In this document: positions 17,471 to 23,702 of the stretch, in pieces
Layout: every line of letters starts with the position of its first letter
Position numbering within the stretch: position 1 is the first letter of the stretch
Assembly (NCBI GenBank): GCA_035624455.1
Contig: DASPRM010000144.1
Span: forward strand, 1-39,463
DNA from: Terriglobales bacterium
GTDB taxonomy: Bacteria > Acidobacteriota > Terriglobia > Terriglobales > Acidobacteriaceae
Reading direction: 5' to 3'
DNA: 39,463 nucleotides
Position numbers and translations under genes: made by a program
The notes under the pieces: generated by a model
Database searches by the model: none
Told to the model about the DNA's origin: nothing
The model's input: the letters and a program-made list of their open reading frames with translations, nothing else

Positions 17471-17836
17471 AGATTTCTCCTTGCGCCGCAAAGGGCGCGA
17501 TTTGATGCCTACGCGTTGCAATGAGGGCTCCTAACAGGCGGGCAGCGCGGGGGATACAAAACATTGAATTGTAGTGAACGGGCCGCACAGGGCACGGCTT
17601 GCGGTGATGATAAATGGCTCCGCGGTGGGGTGGGAAATTGATTGTTTTTATGGGAGCGATAAATGTGACTTATACGCCTGCCCGTTTCGGCCTGGAGTCA
17701 GTTGGCGCTTCTCGAAACTTTGCCCCCGCTGGCTGAGGGCTGTTAGCCTGTAATCTCAAGCGAGCAAAGCTTCGACTCCTGTCCACCCGCGTGGTTGGAT
17801 GGAGGGCCAAGTGTATATCGCAGCGGATCTGCGGCT
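17471..17836. other. Divergent glnA / LysR intergenic region
   Basis: These 366 bp carry the regulatory signals of glnA and of the LysR gene. I see a TACAAT -10-like box for glnA (17568-17573, minus strand) without a matching -35, and LysR-type TN11A half-sites cannot be distinguished from chance. No coding frame or riboswitch is recognised. Confidence 0.4.
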
Positions 17837-18784
17837 ATGGACTTCGATCAACTGGAAACCTTCCTGGAAGTGGCGCGGCTGAGCAGCTTCTCGCGGGCAG
17901 CGGAAAAACGATTCCGCACCCAGCCCGCCATTTCAGCGCAGATCCGCGCCCTGGAAGAGGAGGTCGGCGCCAAGCTGCTGGACCGCAGCGGCGGGCGGGT
18001 CTCTCTGACTGCTGCAGGAAAGATATTCCAGAAATATTCCGAGGACACGGTGCAGTCGCGCCGCGATATCGTTACCGCCATCGCAGAGATGGAACGCGTC
18101 CCGCGCGGCGAGATCGTCGTCGGCGCCAATGAAGGCACCTGCCTGCACATCCTTCCCGAAGTCTTTGCCGAGTTTAAAAAGTCCTATCCCGGGGTCGGCG
18201 TGGAAGTCCGGCGCATGGAGACAGCCAAAGTGCTGGAATCTGTAATCGACAATTCCATCGATTTCGGTGTGGTCTCACTTCCTGTCTCTGACAAACGATT
18301 GACCGTTGTGCCTATTCACCGTGATGAATTAGTGGCGATCTGTGCCCCGCGACACGAGCTTGCCAAGACGAAGTCAGTAAGCGTGGCTCAACTGGGAAAT
18401 TACCCGCTGCTTTTACCCAAGCTGGGGCGTACGCGCGAAGCCATCGATGCGGCTTTTGAAGAGAAAGGGCTCACTCCCACTATTTCCATGGAACTTGATT
18501 CCAGCGAGTTATTAAAGCGATTCGTCGCCGCCGACGTCGGAGTGGGATTCATTCCTCGCTCGAACGTGCTGGAAGATGTCCGCGCCAAGGCGCTGGTAGC
18601 GCTTACCCTTTCCGATACCCAGATCCGGCGTGACCTGGCGCTGGTCTTCCGGCGCGACAAGGCTCTGAGCCGCGCTGCGCTCGCCTTCATCGATATTGCA
18701 GTGCGCCGCAGTTCGCTCGAGCAGCCCGTTGCCATGGCCGGGACCGGCAAAACGAAACGCGAGAGTATTTCTCAGTCTCAGTAG
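17837..18784 (+). CDS. LysR-family transcriptional regulator
   Basis: I choose ATG 17837 (MDFDQLETFLEVARL), the usual LysR N-terminus; a TTG at 17795 would add 14 unlikely residues. Residues 1-60 form the winged helix-turn-helix (SFSRAAEKRFRTQPAISAQIRALEEEVGAKLLDR), and residues about 90-295 the periplasmic-binding-protein-like effector domain. The length of 315 residues is normal. It is divergent from glnA and upstream of the polyamine genes on the same strand, so either could be a target; LysR proteins often control divergent neighbours. The effector is unknown. Repeat copy B lies downstream. Confidence 0.92.
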   Translation: MDFDQLETFLEVARLSSFSRAAEKRFRTQPAISAQIRALEEEVGAKLLDRSGGRVSLTAAGKIFQKYSEDTVQSRRDIVTAIAEMERVPRGEIVVGANEGTCLHILPEVFAEFKKSYPGVGVEVRRMETAKVLESVIDNSIDFGVVSLPVSDKRLTVVPIHRDELVAICAPRHELAKTKSVSVAQLGNYPLLLPKLGRTREAIDAAFEEKGLTPTISMELDSSELLKRFVAADVGVGFIPRSNVLEDVRAKALVALTLSDTQIRRDLALVFRRDKALSRAALAFIDIAVRRSSLEQPVAMAGTGKTKRESISQSQ

Positions 18785-18850
18785 CTCATGTTGCGGTTGG
18801 GAGGCGTCAGCTGTCTTGAATTCACCCTTTCGTCTCACGAACGAGACGCA

Positions 18851-18907
18851 AAGGTCTTTCGACTCGGACCGGGGCTGGTTCTCCCGGTCCTCGCTCAAGA
18901 CGACAGA
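18851..18907 (+). repeat. Palindromic intergenic repeat, copy B
   Basis: Same element as at 4941 and 19640. The inner stem is GGACCGGG (18866-18873) with CCCGGTCC (18883-18890), and the outer stem GTCTT with AAGAC. Compared with copy A, both arms carry paired changes that keep pairing. It sits after the LysR stop codon. Confidence 0.8.
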
Positions 18908-18913
18908 CCGAGG

Positions 18914-18927
18914 GAGGCTAGCGCCTC
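18914..18927. repeat. Short palindrome GAGGCTAGCGCCTC, copy 1
   Basis: A perfect 14-bp palindrome directly beside repeat copy B. The same 14 bp recur at 32967-32980 upstream of aceE. Confidence 0.6.
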
Positions 18928-19065
18928 TCGATGAGCGCTGCCCGCTTCTTTTAATATGGTGTAAATTCTTGATCCCCCTCCAAAATTGCCTTGCCTGCTT
19001 TAGACTTGTGCGTGTTACTTTTTCGCCAAAGCATTGAAAGAAATGAGCACGGGAGGAACTAAGAA

Positions 19066-19626
19066 TTGGGAAAAGACATGGTCCCGCGGAGGATCTTTCT
19101 CACCAAGGGTGTAGGCAAGCACAAAGAGCGTCTGACCTCCTTTGAGCTGGCCCTTAGAGACGCCGGCATTGCAGCTCAGAATCTGGTGCGCGTCTCCTCC
19201 ATTTTTCCTCCGAACTGCAAGGTCCTGCCGCGCAAGGAGGGACTGCGCCGACTCTGGGACGGGGAAGTGGTTTTTGCTGTAGTCGCCGAGAACTCCACCC
19301 GCGAGCCTCATCGCCTGCTGGCTGCCAGCATCGGCTTGGCGATACCCGCCGACCGCGGCACCTATGGCTATCTCAGTGAGCATCACTCCTTTGGAGAGCC
19401 GGAAGAGGCTGCCGGCGACTATGCCGAAGAACTGGCTGCGGAAATGCTGGCTACCACGCTGAATGTGGAATTCGATCCTGACAAGTCGTGGGACGAAAAA
19501 AAGCAGATCTATCGTCTGTCGAACAAAATCGTTCGCACCATGAACGTGACCCAATCCGCGGTAGGCGACAAGCGGGGTTTGTGGACTACGGTGATTGCAT
19601 CGGCCATCTTTCTGTTCGATCGCTAG
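19066..19626 (+). CDS. Pyruvoyl-dependent arginine decarboxylase
   Basis: The enzyme converts arginine to agmatine and CO2, the first step of polyamine synthesis. The start is TTG 19066, with GGGAGGA 8 nt upstream; the ATG at 19078 lacks a well-placed ribosome-binding site. The 186-residue proenzyme contains [10 protein letters not shown], where self-cleavage between Ser44 and Ser45 should make the pyruvoyl group on the new alpha-chain N-terminus. The core ([15 protein letters not shown] and the C-terminal [13 protein letters not shown] region) and the short length fit the PvlArgDC family, known from archaea and some bacteria. It heads a region with agmatine deiminase and N-carbamoylputrescine amidase, which use its product. 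It is convergent with the deoxyhypusine-synthase-like gene. Confidence 0.92.
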
Positions 19627-19639
19627 GCCGGTAAAAAAT

Positions 19640-19695
19640 CTGTCATCTTGAGCGAGGACGGGTCACACCGATCCCCGTCCGAGTCGAAAGATCTT
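19640..19695 (-). repeat. Palindromic intergenic repeat, copy C
   Basis: Third copy of the element, in reverse orientation, between the stop codons of two convergent genes. Inner arms GGACGGG (19656-19662) and CCCGTCC (19674-19680) surround an 11-nt loop; the outer ATCTT/AAGAT pairs are present. Loop sequence differs from copies A and B. Confidence 0.8.
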
Positions 19696-19724
19696 GCGGT
19701 TCTGTTTTTGCGGCGCAGTTCACC

Positions 19725-20798
19725 CTACTTCTTTCTCAGGCGTTCCAGCACGGCTCCCGCAACCAAAGGCAGGCCCACCGTGGCGTCGAGAAACACTTCT
19801 CCAAAACGGCCGCCCTCGTCCGGTGGGACGAATTTTCCCCAGGATATCGCCTCGCTGTAGGGACTTCCTGACAATCCGCCCCAGTGCACCGGCTCCGGGC
19901 AGATGCGTACCCCATAGTGATAGCGCTTGAGCGGCAGATCTTCCCCGCCCCGCCGGTGGCGCAATTCGATATAAGGTCCAAACTGCTGCGACCAGTTTCG
20001 CGGCACGCCCCCGCCGATGGTAAGAATTCCCAGCCGTTTCTCCGCCAGCAGCGTCTCAGCGAAATAATTGAGATCGAAGAAAGGATCGAAATGGATCTGC
20101 GGCCGCTTCTGTTTGGCTCTTTTGCGGTTGTGCAAGGCGACATCCAGGCCCAGCTCGGAATCCGTAAACGCCGGGACAAAAACCGGTACTTTCTTCTGGT
20201 ACGCTGACTTCAAAATCCCCCGCTCCTTCACTTTCTCGCTGAGGTATTTCCCGACATCGCGATTTAGCTTGTACGAGCACATCGTCTCTTGGGCGTCCCA
20301 GGCATCTAGTATCTGCGCCACGATCCCTTCCACGAAGTTGAGGTTGGTCTCGGGCTCCAGGGTGTCATAGACGCGGTTGTATCCCGCCTCATAAAGTTCG
20401 ACGTCGTTCATCCTGGCGTCGTATTTGAAATGCGATTTGCCGGCGGCTTCCACCAGCCCGTGTGCCATCAGCGCTCCGGTCGAGACAAGCGCTTTCACGA
20501 TTCCGTGATCGATCAGATCGGCGATCACTAAGCCTTGCTTGGCGACCGTCATAGCGCCGGCGAGGGTCATCACTACAAAACAATCCTTATCGCGCGCCAT
20601 CGCCTCCAGGACATCAGCGGCATCGCCAACCTGCCGCGCGGTAAAAGCCGTGCGGCCCATGGCTCGCACCAGATCATCAATTCCATGGATCGCAGAGAGA
20701 TCCATCGGCTCCAGTGGAACCAGCTTGTCGCGCACCGGGTCATGCAGCTCACGTTCGATACCCGCGCCTTCGTGATTCACAGCAGCCTTCTTCTTCAA
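19725..20798 (-). CDS. Deoxyhypusine-synthase-like enzyme, probable homospermidine synthase
   Basis: The 357-residue protein belongs to the deoxyhypusine synthase family, which uses NAD to transfer an aminobutyl group from a polyamine to an acceptor. The catalytic lysine motif EAISWGKF is present with K322, and the NAD-binding regions (MTLAGAMTVAKQGL, VSTGALMAHGL) are recognisable. Bacteria lack eIF5A, the usual acceptor; in the cyanobacterium Anabaena a homologue is required to make homospermidine, so a small-molecule acceptor such as putrescine is likely. The start is TTG 20798, set by GGGAGG 7 nt upstream. A candidate promoter lies at 20850-20878. It sits within the arginine-to-putrescine genes, divergent from the amidase. 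Exact substrate and product are unproven. Confidence 0.85.
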   Translation of the reverse strand: MKKKAAVNHEGAGIERELHDPVRDKLVPLEPMDLSAIHGIDDLVRAMGRTAFTARQVGDAADVLEAMARDKDCFVVMTLAGAMTVAKQGLVIADLIDHGIVKALVSTGALMAHGLVEAAGKSHFKYDARMNDVELYEAGYNRVYDTLEPETNLNFVEGIVAQILDAWDAQETMCSYKLNRDVGKYLSEKVKERGILKSAYQKKVPVFVPAFTDSELGLDVALHNRKRAKQKRPQIHFDPFFDLNYFAETLLAEKRLGILTIGGGVPRNWSQQFGPYIELRHRRGGEDLPLKRYHYGVRICPEPVHWGGLSGSPYSEAISWGKFVPPDEGGRFGEVFLDATVGLPLVAGAVLERLRKK

Positions 20799-20849
20799 GC
20801 GAGTGCCTCCCTGCCACAGAATCGACCAAACCGGAAATGGAAAACTTCA

Positions 20850-20878
20850 AAGCTATCCAATGGCTATGACCGCGTCAA
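20850..20878 (-). promoter_or_regulatory. Candidate promoter of the deoxyhypusine-synthase-like gene
   Basis: On the minus strand TTGACG (20878-20873) precedes TAGCTT (20855-20850) by 17 nt. The -35 matches 5 of 6 bases, the -10 only 3 of 6. Position is right for the TTG start at 20798. Confidence 0.35.
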
Positions 20879-20942
20879 TGTTCGGTTCAGCGGATTGTTA
20901 ACACCTGATGAATGCGCCCTCCGGAGCCGGCGCAATTCACTC

Positions 20943-20951
20943 TGGTATGCT
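20943..20951 (+). promoter_or_regulatory. Extended -10 element upstream of the aguB-aguA pair
   Basis: TG-G-TATGCT (TATGCT at 20946-20951) resembles an extended -10 box; no -35 is evident. A transcript would begin near 20958, just before the GAGGAGG ribosome-binding site at 20969-20975. Confidence 0.3.
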
Positions 20952-20981
20952 AGAAAATTCGATGCCTGAGGAGGATGGAAT

Positions 20982-21890
20982 TTGGCGGCAGAAGTTTTTC
21001 GCGTGGGCTTGATCCAGATGTCGTGCACGCCCGATCCGGACAGGAATCTGGAGCACGCGATGGACATGGTGCGCGAAGCTGCCGGACGGGGAGCCCAGGT
21101 GGTTTGCCTGCCCGAGCTGTTCCAGACTCAATACTTCTGCCAGAGGGAAGACCACGCGCTCTTCGATCTTGCCGAACCGATTCCCGGCCCGACCACGACG
21201 AAGCTCTCGCAACTTGCGCGGCAGCAGGGTGTCGCGCTGGTGGCATCGCTGTTCGAGAAGCGCGCTCCCGGGATCTATCACAACACGGCGGCGGTCTTTG
21301 ACAGCGACGGAACCCTGCTCGGGATCTACCGCAAGATGCACATCCCCGACGATCCTCTTTATTACGAGAAGTTCTATTTCACTCCCGGCGATCTCGGCTA
21401 CAAGGTGTTTGACACTCGCGTGGGCAAGCTGGGCACGCTGGTTTGCTGGGATCAGTGGTATCCGGAAGGCGCACGTCTGACTTCCCTGCAGGGCGCGCAG
21501 GTTTTGTTTTATCCCACTGCTATTGGCTGGCATCCGGCGGAGAAGGCCGAGTTCGGCAAGGCGCAGTACGAGGCCTGGCAAACCATCCAGCGCGCGCACG
21601 CCATCGCCAACGGCGTGTATGTGGCGGCAGTGAACCGGGTGGGTTTTGAAACTGGCGACGTTCGAGGCAATAAGGCTCCCGGTCAGGGACTCGAATTCTG
21701 GGGTGGCTCCTTCCTGAGCGATCCCTTCGGGCGTGTGATCGCGCAAGCGCCGCACGATCGCGAGGACATCCTGATCGGCGAGATTGATCTGCGCAAGATG
21801 GAAGACGTGCGCCGCAACTGGCCGTTCCTGCGAGACCGCCGCATCGACAGCTACGCTCCCATTACGCATCGTTTTCTCGACCAATCATGA
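20982..21890 (+). CDS. aguB: N-carbamoylputrescine amidohydrolase
   Basis: The 302-residue nitrilase-superfamily enzyme cleaves N-carbamoylputrescine to putrescine, CO2 and ammonia. The catalytic triad is visible: E45 in LPELFQTQYF, K118 in YRKMHIPDDP and C155 in VCWDQWYPEGAR. The motif YYEKFYFTPGD and the length match AguB of plants and bacteria. The start is TTG 20982, set by GAGGAGG 6 nt upstream. The stop codon overlaps the start of the agmatine deiminase gene by 4 bp (ATGA), so translation is coupled. Together with the decarboxylase at 19066 it completes the agmatine route to putrescine. Confidence 0.93.
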   Translation: MAAEVFRVGLIQMSCTPDPDRNLEHAMDMVREAAGRGAQVVCLPELFQTQYFCQREDHALFDLAEPIPGPTTTKLSQLARQQGVALVASLFEKRAPGIYHNTAAVFDSDGTLLGIYRKMHIPDDPLYYEKFYFTPGDLGYKVFDTRVGKLGTLVCWDQWYPEGARLTSLQGAQVLFYPTAIGWHPAEKAEFGKAQYEAWQTIQRAHAIANGVYVAAVNRVGFETGDVRGNKAPGQGLEFWGGSFLSDPFGRVIAQAPHDREDILIGEIDLRKMEDVRRNWPFLRDRRIDSYAPITHRFLDQS

Positions 21891-23056
21891 GAAAGCAGCG
21901 CCGAGGGGTCTCGCCCGGCTTGATGGGCGTTGGCTACCGCATGCCTGCTGAGTGGGAGCCGCACGCTGCCACCTGGCTTGCCTGGCCACACAACCGCACC
22001 GACTGGCCGGGAAAATTTGAGCCCATTCCCTGGGTCTACGCGGAGATTGTTCGACACCTGGCGCGCGTAGAGCGGGTCGAGCTGATCGTTGCCGACGAAG
22101 CGGAAGAAGAGCGCGCTCGCAAGGTACTGTCGAGGGCCGGTGCACTCGTCGATGCCACAGATGAAAAGCGATTGCGCGATATCGGTATTCGCTTCCATCG
22201 CTGGCCAACGAACCGCGTCTGGACTCGCGACTTCGCCGCTATTTTCGTTACTGGCGACGCCGATCGTTCAAGCCGACTCGAAGCCTCGACCGTGCCCTCC
22301 CAATACGAACGATCCTTAACCGCGCTCAACTGGCGTTTCAACGCCTGGGCCAAGTATCCCGATTGGCAGCTCGACAACCAGATTCCCGGCAAGATTGCCC
22401 GCCGGTTGAGGATCTTGGAGATCAAACCAACGGCCGCGAACAATCCCAAGCATTGGGTGGTGCTGGAAGGGGGCAGCATCGACGTAAACGGCGCCGGATG
22501 TCTGCTGACCACCGAAGAGTGTCTGCTCAGTGAAGTGCAGCAGCGCAACCCTTGTCTTTCGCGTGAGCAATTGGAACAAGTTTTTCGTGATTATCTCGGG
22601 ATCTCCAAGGTGCTTTGGCTGGAGCGCGGAATTGTGGGTGATGACACTCACGGCCACATCGACGACATCAGCCGCTTTGTTGCGCGGGACACAATCGTTA
22701 CAGCGGTCGAGCCCGATCCTTCCGATCCCAATCATAGCCTGCTCGCGGAAAATCTCAAGCGGCTGCGCACGATGAGCGATCAGCAGGGAAAGCCTTTCCG
22801 CGTCGTGGAACTGCCCATGCCCGCGCCGGTCATTTTTCGAGGCCAGCGCCTGCCGGCCAGCTATGCCAACTTCTACATCGCCAATCAGACCGTGTTGGTC
22901 CCGGTGTTCAACGATCCCAAGGATCGGCTGGCCCTTAACACGCTCGCCGAGCTTTTCCCTGATCGGCGAGTGATCGGCATCTACTGCGGGGATCTGGTCT
23001 GGGGACTGGGCACGATCCACTGCATGACGCAGCAGCAGCCTGCGGTGAATAAGTAA
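21887..23056 (+). CDS. aguA: Agmatine deiminase
   Basis: The enzyme converts agmatine to N-carbamoylputrescine and ammonia. The 389-residue protein has the peptidyl-arginine-deiminase-like fold signatures: GYRMPAEWEPHAATWLAWPHN at the start, NRVWTRDFAAIFV, DDTHGHIDDISRF with the catalytic His, and GLGTIHCMTQQQP with the nucleophile C379. The ATG overlaps the aguB stop (ATGA). The order aguB-aguA, with the product-consuming enzyme first, is common. It ends against the convergent nuoI gene, separated by 35 bp holding an inverted repeat. Confidence 0.94.
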   Translation: MRKQRRGVSPGLMGVGYRMPAEWEPHAATWLAWPHNRTDWPGKFEPIPWVYAEIVRHLARVERVELIVADEAEEERARKVLSRAGALVDATDEKRLRDIGIRFHRWPTNRVWTRDFAAIFVTGDADRSSRLEASTVPSQYERSLTALNWRFNAWAKYPDWQLDNQIPGKIARRLRILEIKPTAANNPKHWVVLEGGSIDVNGAGCLLTTEECLLSEVQQRNPCLSREQLEQVFRDYLGISKVLWLERGIVGDDTHGHIDDISRFVARDTIVTAVEPDPSDPNHSLLAENLKRLRTMSDQQGKPFRVVELPMPAPVIFRGQRLPASYANFYIANQTVLVPVFNDPKDRLALNTLAELFPDRRVIGIYCGDLVWGLGTIHCMTQQQPAVNK

Positions 23057-23088
23057 TCAGCAATTGACTGCTGAGGGCTGAGTGCTGA
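23057..23088. terminator. Inverted repeat between convergent aguA and nuoI
   Basis: AATCAGCA at the left and TGCTGATT at the right pair around a GCTGA-rich centre in the 35-bp gap, with a short T-run (rightward) and A-run (leftward) around. It could serve as a weak bidirectional terminator. A related GCTGA-rich text lies at about 24300-24366. Confidence 0.4.
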
Positions 23089-23091
23089 TTT

Positions 23092-23553
23092 CTACCTCTT
23101 GTACACGGTGGGCTGGGGGCCCTGCTCCAGGATCTGGCGATCCCAGATGGCACCTTCGCGCGAGTAGTTGGCCATTTCGAAGTCCTGGGTCAGTTCCAGG
23201 GCGTCGGTGGGGCAGGCGTCCTCACAAAGGCCGCAGAACATGCAGCGGCTGGTGTCGTAGGTGAAGGTGGTCAGTTCCTTGCGGCGCGTTTTCTCATTGC
23301 GTTCGGAAGTGACGACAATCAGGTGCTCGGGACAGGCAACGGCACACAGATCGCAGGCGATGCATAGCGTCTCGTTGGTGTCGGGGTTCACATTCAGGCG
23401 CGGTGCGCCGCGATAACGCTCGGCGACGTGCGGGCGCTGCAGGGGATACTGCTCGGTGTAGATCTCCTTCGGATTCTGGTTGCGGAACGTGACCTTCAGG
23501 CCCTGCAGCAGGTCGACCAGCAGGACGTTCTTCAAGGTTTCTTTAAGCCGCAC
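23092..23553 (-). CDS. nuoI: NADH-quinone oxidoreductase subunit I
   Basis: The 153-residue protein carries the two [4Fe-4S] ferredoxin motifs of complex I subunit I: CIACDLCAVACP and CMFCGLCEDACP. These pass electrons from the NADH module towards quinone. The N-terminal segment (VLLVDLLQGLKVTFRN) and EQYPLQRPHVAERYRG are typical of the family; the length is normal to slightly short. No other nuo gene is adjacent on either side, so it is separated from the rest of the complex or is a second copy. It is convergent with aguA and divergent from tadA. Confidence 0.92.
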   Translation of the reverse strand: MRLKETLKNVLLVDLLQGLKVTFRNQNPKEIYTEQYPLQRPHVAERYRGAPRLNVNPDTNETLCIACDLCAVACPEHLIVVTSERNEKTRRKELTTFTYDTSRCMFCGLCEDACPTDALELTQDFEMANYSREGAIWDRQILEQGPQPTVYKR

Positions 23554-23702
23554 GTGGTTTCCCCGTTGGAATGCTTATGCGCCTAGTTTAACCCAGGCCC
23601 GCAAAGGCTGGCTATTGGGCAGAGGGCAATGGCTTAATTGGCTATCTCTGCAACCCCGTCTGTGGTTTTCTCTCGGCAGCCGCTAAACTGGCGAAGAATC
23701 TA

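Follow-up and report, generated by a model that had tools for sequence, protein, structure and literature searches.

A conserved Acidobacteriota gene cluster proposed to lead from arginine to homospermidine without S-adenosylmethionine

Introduction

Which polyamine would a bacterium make from a cluster in which a deoxyhypusine synthase (DHS)-like gene lies among genes for the conversion of arginine into putrescine? The question is raised by a locus on contig DASPRM010000144.1 of a Terriglobales bacterium (assembly GCA_035624455.1, family Acidobacteriaceae). The whole stretch analyzed, 39,463 nucleotides and hereafter called the window, makes up contig 144 in a draft assembly of 166 contigs (genome G000; 4.39 Mb, 97.7% complete, 1.5% contamination). 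The locus encodes a pyruvoyl arginine decarboxylase (ADC), an N-carbamoylputrescine amidase (NCPAH), an agmatine deiminase (AIH), and a DHS-like protein, here termed P0002. To our knowledge, bacteria lack eIF5A. A preliminary description of this DNA had read the four genes as one arginine-to-polyamine locus with homospermidine as the end product. Our analysis supports the first point, and homospermidine, on our best reading, would be the most economical product. The locus probably leads from arginine to homospermidine without S-adenosylmethionine (SAM), with the coupling step before or after removal of the guanidino group; substrates, product, and order of steps are predictions from sequence comparison.

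The four genes and their conservation

The preliminary description had placed four genes within about 4 kb, at 18837-23056. All four were confirmed by family and occupy 19066-23056; the preceding 229 bases (18837-19065) are intergenic between a LysR-family gene and the ADC gene and carry one arm of an inverted repeat. The ADC gene (19066..19626, plus strand, TTG start) encodes 186 amino acids, and the protein is predicted to convert arginine into agmatine. It was assigned to the PvlArgDC family by its PF01862 score (195.7 bits, cut-off 22.7; E 5.9e-58) and by the self-cleavage serine in the motif VSS, aligned to its PDB relative 1n2m; TIGR00286 was passed (116.0, cut-off 106.95) and NF009064 narrowly missed (195.5, cut-off 207). 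The DHS-like gene (19725..20798, minus strand, TTG start) encodes the 357 amino acids of P0002 (PF01916, E 4e-78) with the catalytic lysine K322. Both the VSS site and the SWGK lysine had been pointed out before, and both are present. The AguB-like NCPAH gene (20982..21890, plus strand, TTG start, 302 amino acids, PF00795) overlaps by four bases with the AguA-like AIH gene (21887..23056, plus strand, ATG start, 389 amino acids, PF04371, E 3.9e-118). As the DHS-like gene is opposite in strand to the other three, a point that the preliminary description had not made, the cluster is not one operon.

Superfamily matches were strong for all four proteins, with ADC the only one to pass an NCBIfam-level cut-off. 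The closest PDB relatives were 6mg6 (2.1e-88) and the N-carbamoylputrescine amidohydrolase 5h8i (9.1e-73) for NCPAH, and 1xkn (2.1e-104) and the agmatine deiminase 3h7c (4.7e-58) for AIH. We named these two proteins by family, PDB relatives, and genomic context, because both miss the respective equivalog cut-offs (NCPAH: TIGR03381 for AguB, 309.4 against 410.25; AIH: TIGR03380 for AguA, 256.7 against 381.8, with the AIH of locus L225 also below at 261.7). By eye, we take the catalytic residues to be the serine of VSS in ADC, the final cysteine of GLGTIHC in AIH, and a nitrilase triad of Glu, Lys, and Cys in NCPAH.

For the neighborhood, named genome contigs were scanned with an alignment of 12 relatives of P0002 (A1), and the best 80 of at least 562 confirmed relatives were taken as loci. 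Every one of the 80 record titles refers to Acidobacteria or to a group within them (among others Acidobacteriaceae, Terriglobia, Acidiferrales, and Sulfotelmatobacter). A long-flank set was formed from the 34 loci in which the DHS-like gene has 7.3 kb or more to both sides, many others ending at contig edges; gene presence in it was called by bit cut-offs that we set. ADC was found in 32 of these, NCPAH in 28, and AIH in 27. All four genes were held by 27 of the 34 loci, which bears out the suggestion to look for the same neighborhood in other Acidobacteriota. The remaining window neighbors tested were less frequent (LysR 18, NuoI-like 11, TadA 10, GlnA 9, ORF26127 1, AckA and a serine/threonine kinase 0). 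Across all 80 loci, the combinations were NCPAH, AIH, and ADC (45), NCPAH and AIH (11), NCPAH and ADC (6), NCPAH alone (3), ADC alone (10), ADC and agmatinase (2), agmatinase alone (1), and none (2). With at least 5.5 kb upstream, NCPAH and AIH were present in 45 of 56 loci; with at least 4 kb downstream, ADC was present in 54 of 61. The four-gene cluster is very unlikely to be a chance arrangement.

NCPAH was opposite in strand to the DHS-like gene wherever it occurred (65/65), and in 10 of the 65 it overlapped the start of that gene by longest-frame calls. Gaps between the DHS-like gene and its divergent neighbor (opposite strand, upstream) ranged from 42 to 3932 bases. Since the gap to NCPAH reaches 3.9 kb, the neighborhood has been reworked and was still kept. 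At three of the 80 loci (L222, L223, L229), a divergent agmatinase gene occupies the NCPAH-AIH position (TIGR01230, 200.8-235.8 bits, cut-off 174.3); L223 has a short downstream flank and so lies outside the long-flank set. Given this exchange of agmatinase for NCPAH-AIH, the de-guanidinating step seems to be the requirement that is kept.

PvlArgDC, DHS-like, and SpeB-like genes were also seen together on one strand at loci L083 (genome G241), L004 (G006), and L005 (G089). The DHS-like genes there are of SpeY type (L083) and PRK00805 type (L004), each with an agmatinase over cut-off, and L005 was typed by phmmer only.

The DHS-like protein and its clade

P0002 belongs to the DHS superfamily by its PF01916 score (263.1 bits, cut-off 27), its fold, and its catalytic lysine. 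The C-terminal part carries the motif SEAISWGKF with K322, a lysine present in all 81 rows of its clade, labeled group B, in a residue alignment. An AlphaFold2 model (pLDDT 86.5, pTM 0.85) retrieved DHS entries at Z of about 32, with 1roz superimposed at a root-mean-square deviation of 2.2 over 305 residues. This search speaks for the fold and does not discriminate between substrates.

Scores for the NCBIfam models, given as bits/cut-off, were 230.8/434 for PRK00805, 207.4/364 for PRK02301, 203/500 for CdmS (NF002699), 184.9/304.25 for TIGR00321, 166.4/450 for SpeY (NF001980), 123.6/350 for PRK01221, and 95.8/380 for PRK03971. Representatives of other types passed their own models (L012 CdmS, 606.7; L083 SpeY, 557.2, from the same phylum; L004 PRK00805, 436). 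In a tree of 53 sequences, the SpeY (99/99), CdmS (100/100), PDB DHS (100/99), and group D (100/100) rows all fell apart from group B and its sister B2. Group B alone reached 75/75 only; long branches were flagged, and the deep order is uncertain. SpeY was ruled out for P0002 by model score and position outside the SpeY clade, and the deoxyhypusine synthase model TIGR00321 stayed below cut-off. Likewise, P0002 was not assigned to CdmS, given its score, its position outside the CdmS clade, and the residue comparison below. Group B is a DHS-like clade with conserved biosynthetic context, and we know of no characterized member.

The residue alignment comprised 81 group B, 7 B2, 20 CdmS, 5 SpeY, 7 group A, 10 group D, and 3 DHS rows; loci L064-L070 are not part of it and sit in alignment A1. 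The labels of the group A and SpeY rows are our own, and among the latter only L083 passes the cut-off (L077, 429.1/450), the others being tree-based. The CdmS label is the name of the model NF002699, which was matched in 7 of 14 control genomes, over cut-off in 3; Thermus is not confirmed among these 3. Equivalents of K322, W320, E316, and D213 were identical in every row. K87, E148, E150, E157, E215, R298, and E302 were invariant in the 12 rows of A1; in group B, E150 occurs in every one of the 80 filled rows, and E157 in 78 of 80. K87, E148, E215, R298, and E302 are confined to B and B2 among the groups compared, group A having Asp at the last position in 6 of 7 rows. Human position 138 is Gly instead of Asp in the clade of P0002.

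CdmS substrate-site residues have been proposed as Ser67, Glu136, Asp143, Phe204, Leu286, and Glu293, with E136 and D143 for the second guanidino group (excerpt of PMC10981699). A constant numbering offset placed two of the six, and the other four were mapped by eye. Leu286 and Glu293 are kept (L309 and E316 of P0002), Phe204 is replaced by L218, and Ser67 by V85; the positions of E136 and D143, mapped by eye, are E150 and E157; at the first of these, four SpeY rows carry Tyr and one carries Ala. At the site of human Asp243, group B rows have Leu (69, P0002 among them) or Ile (12), CdmS rows Phe, and SpeY rows Met; at the site of human Asp316, Leu is shared by B, B2, CdmS, SpeY, and two archaeal DHS. 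Leu at these two positions was dropped as a sign of CdmS, as Leu316 also occurs in SpeY and the two archaeal DHS, and a hydrophobic residue at 243 in SpeY and group A. As far as the sequence comparison goes, the pocket appears to lean away from the SpeY type, yet this does not make it CdmS-type.

At three loci (L078, L088, L090), DHS-like paralogues adjoin a SpeA homologue, and the SWGK motif is altered to IYGK, NWSR, and VFGK. They are possibly inactive subunits.

Polyamine genes in the genome and the phylum

The preliminary description had noted the lack of a spermidine synthase or SAM decarboxylase in the window, and regarded a genomic speD/speE pair as an argument against its proposal. Whole-genome searches of G000 gave no SpeD- or SpeE-family match on the contig, no SpeD (PF02675) match anywhere, and no protein over any spermidine synthase cut-off; as the draft is in 166 contigs, a missed gene is possible behind such absences. 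The two PF01564 (Spermine_synth) matches are an 805-amino acid frame (SpeE model 96.8, cut-off 249.55; fused major facilitator superfamily/spermidine synthase model MFS_SpdSyn 39.8, cut-off 40, narrowly missed) and a 566-amino acid frame (SpeE model 27.3, cut-off 249.55). With no PF02675 match and both PF01564 matches below cut-off, the canonical SAM-dependent spermidine route was rejected. The carboxyspermidine route was rejected as well: the sole PF02784 protein is LysA (488.4, cut-off 297.9), which leaves no candidate carboxyspermidine decarboxylase.

The sole match to the ureohydrolase family PF00491 is an arginase (306.5, cut-off 227.6), and there is one DHS-like gene. AIH and NCPAH are, judged by sequence family, the sole candidates found in G000 for stripping the guanidino group of agmatine.

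The distribution of these genes was surveyed in 247 Acidobacteriota genomes (completeness of at least 90% requested), 29 of them from the taxonomic family of the window. DS-family matches were present in 201 genomes, SpeD in 89, PvlArgDC in 60, and CdmS over cut-off in 22, G000 not among them. When the genomes were grouped by eye on E-values, SpeD occurred in 34 of the 151 whose DHS-like gene was strong, in 22 of the 44 limited to a weak group D gene, in 1 of the 6 with a marginal match, and in 32 of the 46 lacking any. SpeD is thus rarer alongside a strong DHS-like gene than in the remaining genomes (Fisher p = 4e-8; relatedness makes the genomes non-independent). Group D (e.g., L093, L097, L102) is a distant DHS-like group, and L097, the one scanned, passes no NCBIfam cut-off. 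As 22 of the 44 genomes with group D only also carry SpeD, this group may serve some purpose other than triamine synthesis.

In the family of the window, SpeD was absent (0/29) and both a DHS-like gene and AIH were present in every genome (29/29). The DHS-like gene was of group B in 8, CdmS in 19, and group D in 2. Of the 19 CdmS genomes (e.g., G033, L012, L007, L010), 16 had no PF00491 match, two had weak ones (68-72 bits), and one had an arginase; AIH was present in all 19 and PvlArgDC absent in 16. The agmatine source of these 16 was not found in searches that did not cover aspartate aminotransferase (AAT)-fold decarboxylases (PF01276).

In an AIH tree of 29 rows, covering 9 of the 19 CdmS genomes, AIH of the latter formed one subclade (100/98) beside that of the group D genome G007. 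The larger set around it includes, in addition, the group B rows and a single genome from a different family, and two rows lie outside the main clade; the tree says little beyond the CdmS-genome subclade.

Pathway and alternative explanations

In the proposed pathway, the pyruvoyl decarboxylase would convert arginine into agmatine, and AIH and NCPAH would strip the guanidino group to give putrescine. AIH frees ammonia from agmatine, and NCPAH frees carbon dioxide and ammonia to leave putrescine. P0002 would then oxidize one diamine with NAD, hold the four-carbon imine on K322, and pass the four-carbon amine unit to a second diamine, yielding the triamine homospermidine. We propose P0002 of group B as an NAD-dependent homospermidine-forming enzyme. 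SAM-free homospermidine synthesis is our best reading because the four-gene locus is conserved, and because G000 has no SpeD, no SpeE over cut-off, and arginase as its sole ureohydrolase match. As to what P0002 takes, we rank putrescine first, although only tentatively.

Several findings weigh against this proposal. P0002 stays below cut-off in all seven NCBIfam models that it matched. B and B2 form one deep clade (100/100) on a long, separate branch (stem 1.73), and because K87, E148, E215, R298, and E302 are absent from SpeY, CdmS, group A, and DHS, the substrate of P0002 could differ from both known types. The conservation is in part plain common descent, the 80 loci sharing 67-80% identity. 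The NCPAH-AIH pair is missing in 7 of the 34 long-flank loci, and in only two of these (L222, L229) is an agmatinase found instead; L158, L159, L224, and L235 have neither in that place, and L169 has NCPAH without AIH. None of the seven B2 loci has a partner gene nearby. A bacterial homospermidine synthase (HSS) may also be present in G000: a PF03435 search gave three matches, one of them over cut-off, with no HSS reference for comparison.

The match over cut-off is a 399-amino acid protein with a saccharopine dehydrogenase-type domain (contig 47 of G000, locus L262, 679-1878, minus strand). No named NCBIfam model, polyamine models included, was over cut-off for it, and it is possibly a lysine dehydrogenase or a polyamine enzyme.

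The caldomycin synthase model of agmatine coupling is a serious alternative that the preliminary description had overlooked. Here, P0002 would act like CdmS and couple two agmatines to 1,9-bis(guanidino)-5-azanonane, and AIH and NCPAH would uncap both ends to give homospermidine, so that de-guanidination follows coupling. We rank this order second and consider it possible. The earlier assumption that the DHS-like enzyme acts on putrescine was not supported: in the excerpt of PMC10981699, CdmS of Thermus thermophilus (TTHA1570) works on agmatine only, joining two molecules of it, and does not accept putrescine. The acidic pair of CdmS recurs by eye at E150 and E157, where SpeY differs at the first; the pair is not specific, as DHS rows share the Glu of E157 and group D has Glu at both sites. 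The CdmS score of P0002, its place in the tree, and the changes of Phe204 to Leu218 and Ser67 to Val85 argue against the agmatine-first order. Arginase is the only ureohydrolase-family match of G000, and the T. thermophilus arginase is almost inactive on caldomycin (PMC10981699, excerpt). The family-wide pattern, in which the DHS-like type is exchanged and the deiminase kept, gives ground for coupling first: CdmS occurs in 19 of 29 genomes, 16 of these without PF00491, and AIH is present whatever the DHS-like type. Against this stand the 16 CdmS genomes without PvlArgDC, and AIH or NCPAH activity on such guanidino-triamines was not found in the excerpts compared. The agmatinase swap is compatible with either order. 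A more far-reaching version, doubtful in our view, is that the coupling of two agmatines is common to group B and to the CdmS proteins of further genera in this family, with AIH and NCPAH, not a ureohydrolase, uncapping both ends of the bis-guanidino triamine. If true, it would make group B a second agmatine-coupling DHS lineage with an independent specialization, and AIH and NCPAH would act on a triamine, for which the excerpted literature reports no activity of theirs.

Two further explanations dispense with homospermidine. P0002 may move its aminobutyl group to some other amine, to an amino acid, or to a lysine of a protein, as its deep clade, the invariant K87, R298, E148, E215, and E302, and Gly for Asp at human position 138 could suggest; the two extra basic residues might suit an acidic or zwitterionic partner. 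The new charges may merely pair among themselves, the neighbors supply agmatine and putrescine, and of the further neighbors tested, counting only genes present in the window, LysR alone reaches half of the long-flank loci. Such an acceptor seems unlikely to us. It is very improbable that P0002 is a chance neighbor of ADC, AIH, and NCPAH genes that make only putrescine, for example for acid response or nitrogen supply. The opposite orientation of the DHS-like gene, the partnerless B2 loci, and genome G007, in which ADC, NCPAH, and AIH lie together on a contig without a DHS-like gene, fit that idea. ADC and NCPAH beside the DHS-like gene in 32 and 28 of the 34 long-flank loci speak against it, and a functional link is favored by the agmatinase that takes the divergent place of NCPAH-AIH.

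SAM-free homospermidine synthesis, our preferred reading, would ground in the genome a triamine supply of soil Acidobacteriota that is independent of SAM. Three interchangeable DHS-like types with a constant AIH in one family allow a direct test of AIH and NCPAH on guanidino-triamines. The case also advises caution: a bacterial DHS homologue near putrescine genes is not automatically a putrescine-using homospermidine synthase.

Flanking features of the window

Directly upstream of the ADC gene lies the gene of a LysR-family regulator (17795..18784, plus strand; PF00126, PF03466). The 25 listed of its 52 NCBIfam matches all fall below cut-off; it is a possible regulator of the locus and a candidate polyamine or arginine regulator. 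The ADC gene is flanked by 57-base inverted arms (18851-18907 and 19639-19695) that are 81% complementary. Their core CTTTCGACTCGGAC has five copies in the window at up to two mismatches, with 0.37 expected, and the arms would fit a dispersed repeat better than a mobile cassette. Rfam gave no match in 18700-23700, and promoter-like sites were not above shuffled sequences (1 against a mean of 1.2). Terminator-like sites (7 against a shuffle mean of 4.5) were not used in the interpretation.

Comparison with known systems

The DHS homologue SpeY of Anabaena, studied by Burnat et al. in 2018, is reportedly required for homospermidine. The preliminary description had likened the window to Anabaena. 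Both proteins are DHS homologues; P0002 scores 166.4 against a cut-off of 450 on the NCBIfam homospermidine biosynthesis (SpeY) model and lies outside the SpeY clade, and the likeness was not upheld at this level.

The route had further been called little described in this phylum. This holds in so far as, among the open-licence PubMed Central papers listed for acidobacterial polyamines or for the PvlArgDC family with homospermidine, no title or abstract opening concerned this locus; caldomycin was not found there beyond PMC10981699. A polyamine analysis that includes Acidobacteria was reportedly made by Hosoya et al. in 2006. In the listed papers and the excerpts compared, we did not find described a DHS-like clade of this kind linked with PvlArgDC, NCPAH, and AIH in many Acidobacteriota, the agmatinase swap, or CdmS genomes lacking a ureohydrolase. 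It does not hold for the functions themselves: according to excerpts of the papers cited below, the pathway type is already known from other bacteria.

In Thermus, a DHS homologue leads to homospermidine (excerpt of PMC10981699). The T. thermophilus CdmS resembles P0002 as a bacterial DHS homologue with the catalytic lysine, Leu at human Asp316, and, by eye, the acidic pair; it differs in having its own clade and in Phe204 and Ser67, which P0002 lacks, and Thermus then uses a ureohydrolase (PMC10981699).

SpeY is described as a homospermidine synthase acting on putrescine (excerpts of PMC9992855 and PMC10407285). The Fonsibacter cluster (ODC-type ADC, AIH, NCPAH, and DHS/SpeY) and the Pelagibacter cluster, with arginase/agmatinase instead, combine an ADC, de-guanidination, and a DHS homologue as the window does, and they alternate between AIH-NCPAH and agmatinase as its relatives do between loci. 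Their ADC is a pyridoxal phosphate (PLP)-dependent enzyme of another fold, and their DHS homologue is named SpeY, whose model P0002 fails (PMC9992855, excerpt). Zymomonas mobilis, with ZMO1020-ZMO1019 and ZMO1369-ZMO1370, shares the four functions from arginine to homospermidine; it differs in a group IV decarboxylase and two separate operons, and the route is hypothetical there (excerpt of PMC8594446). Clusters of speDA and speY with speB or aguA/aguB likewise join a pyruvoyl ADC to a DHS homologue for SAM-free homospermidine. Their ADC is derived from SAM decarboxylase, whereas that of the window belongs to the archaeal PvlArgDC family (PMC10407285, excerpt).

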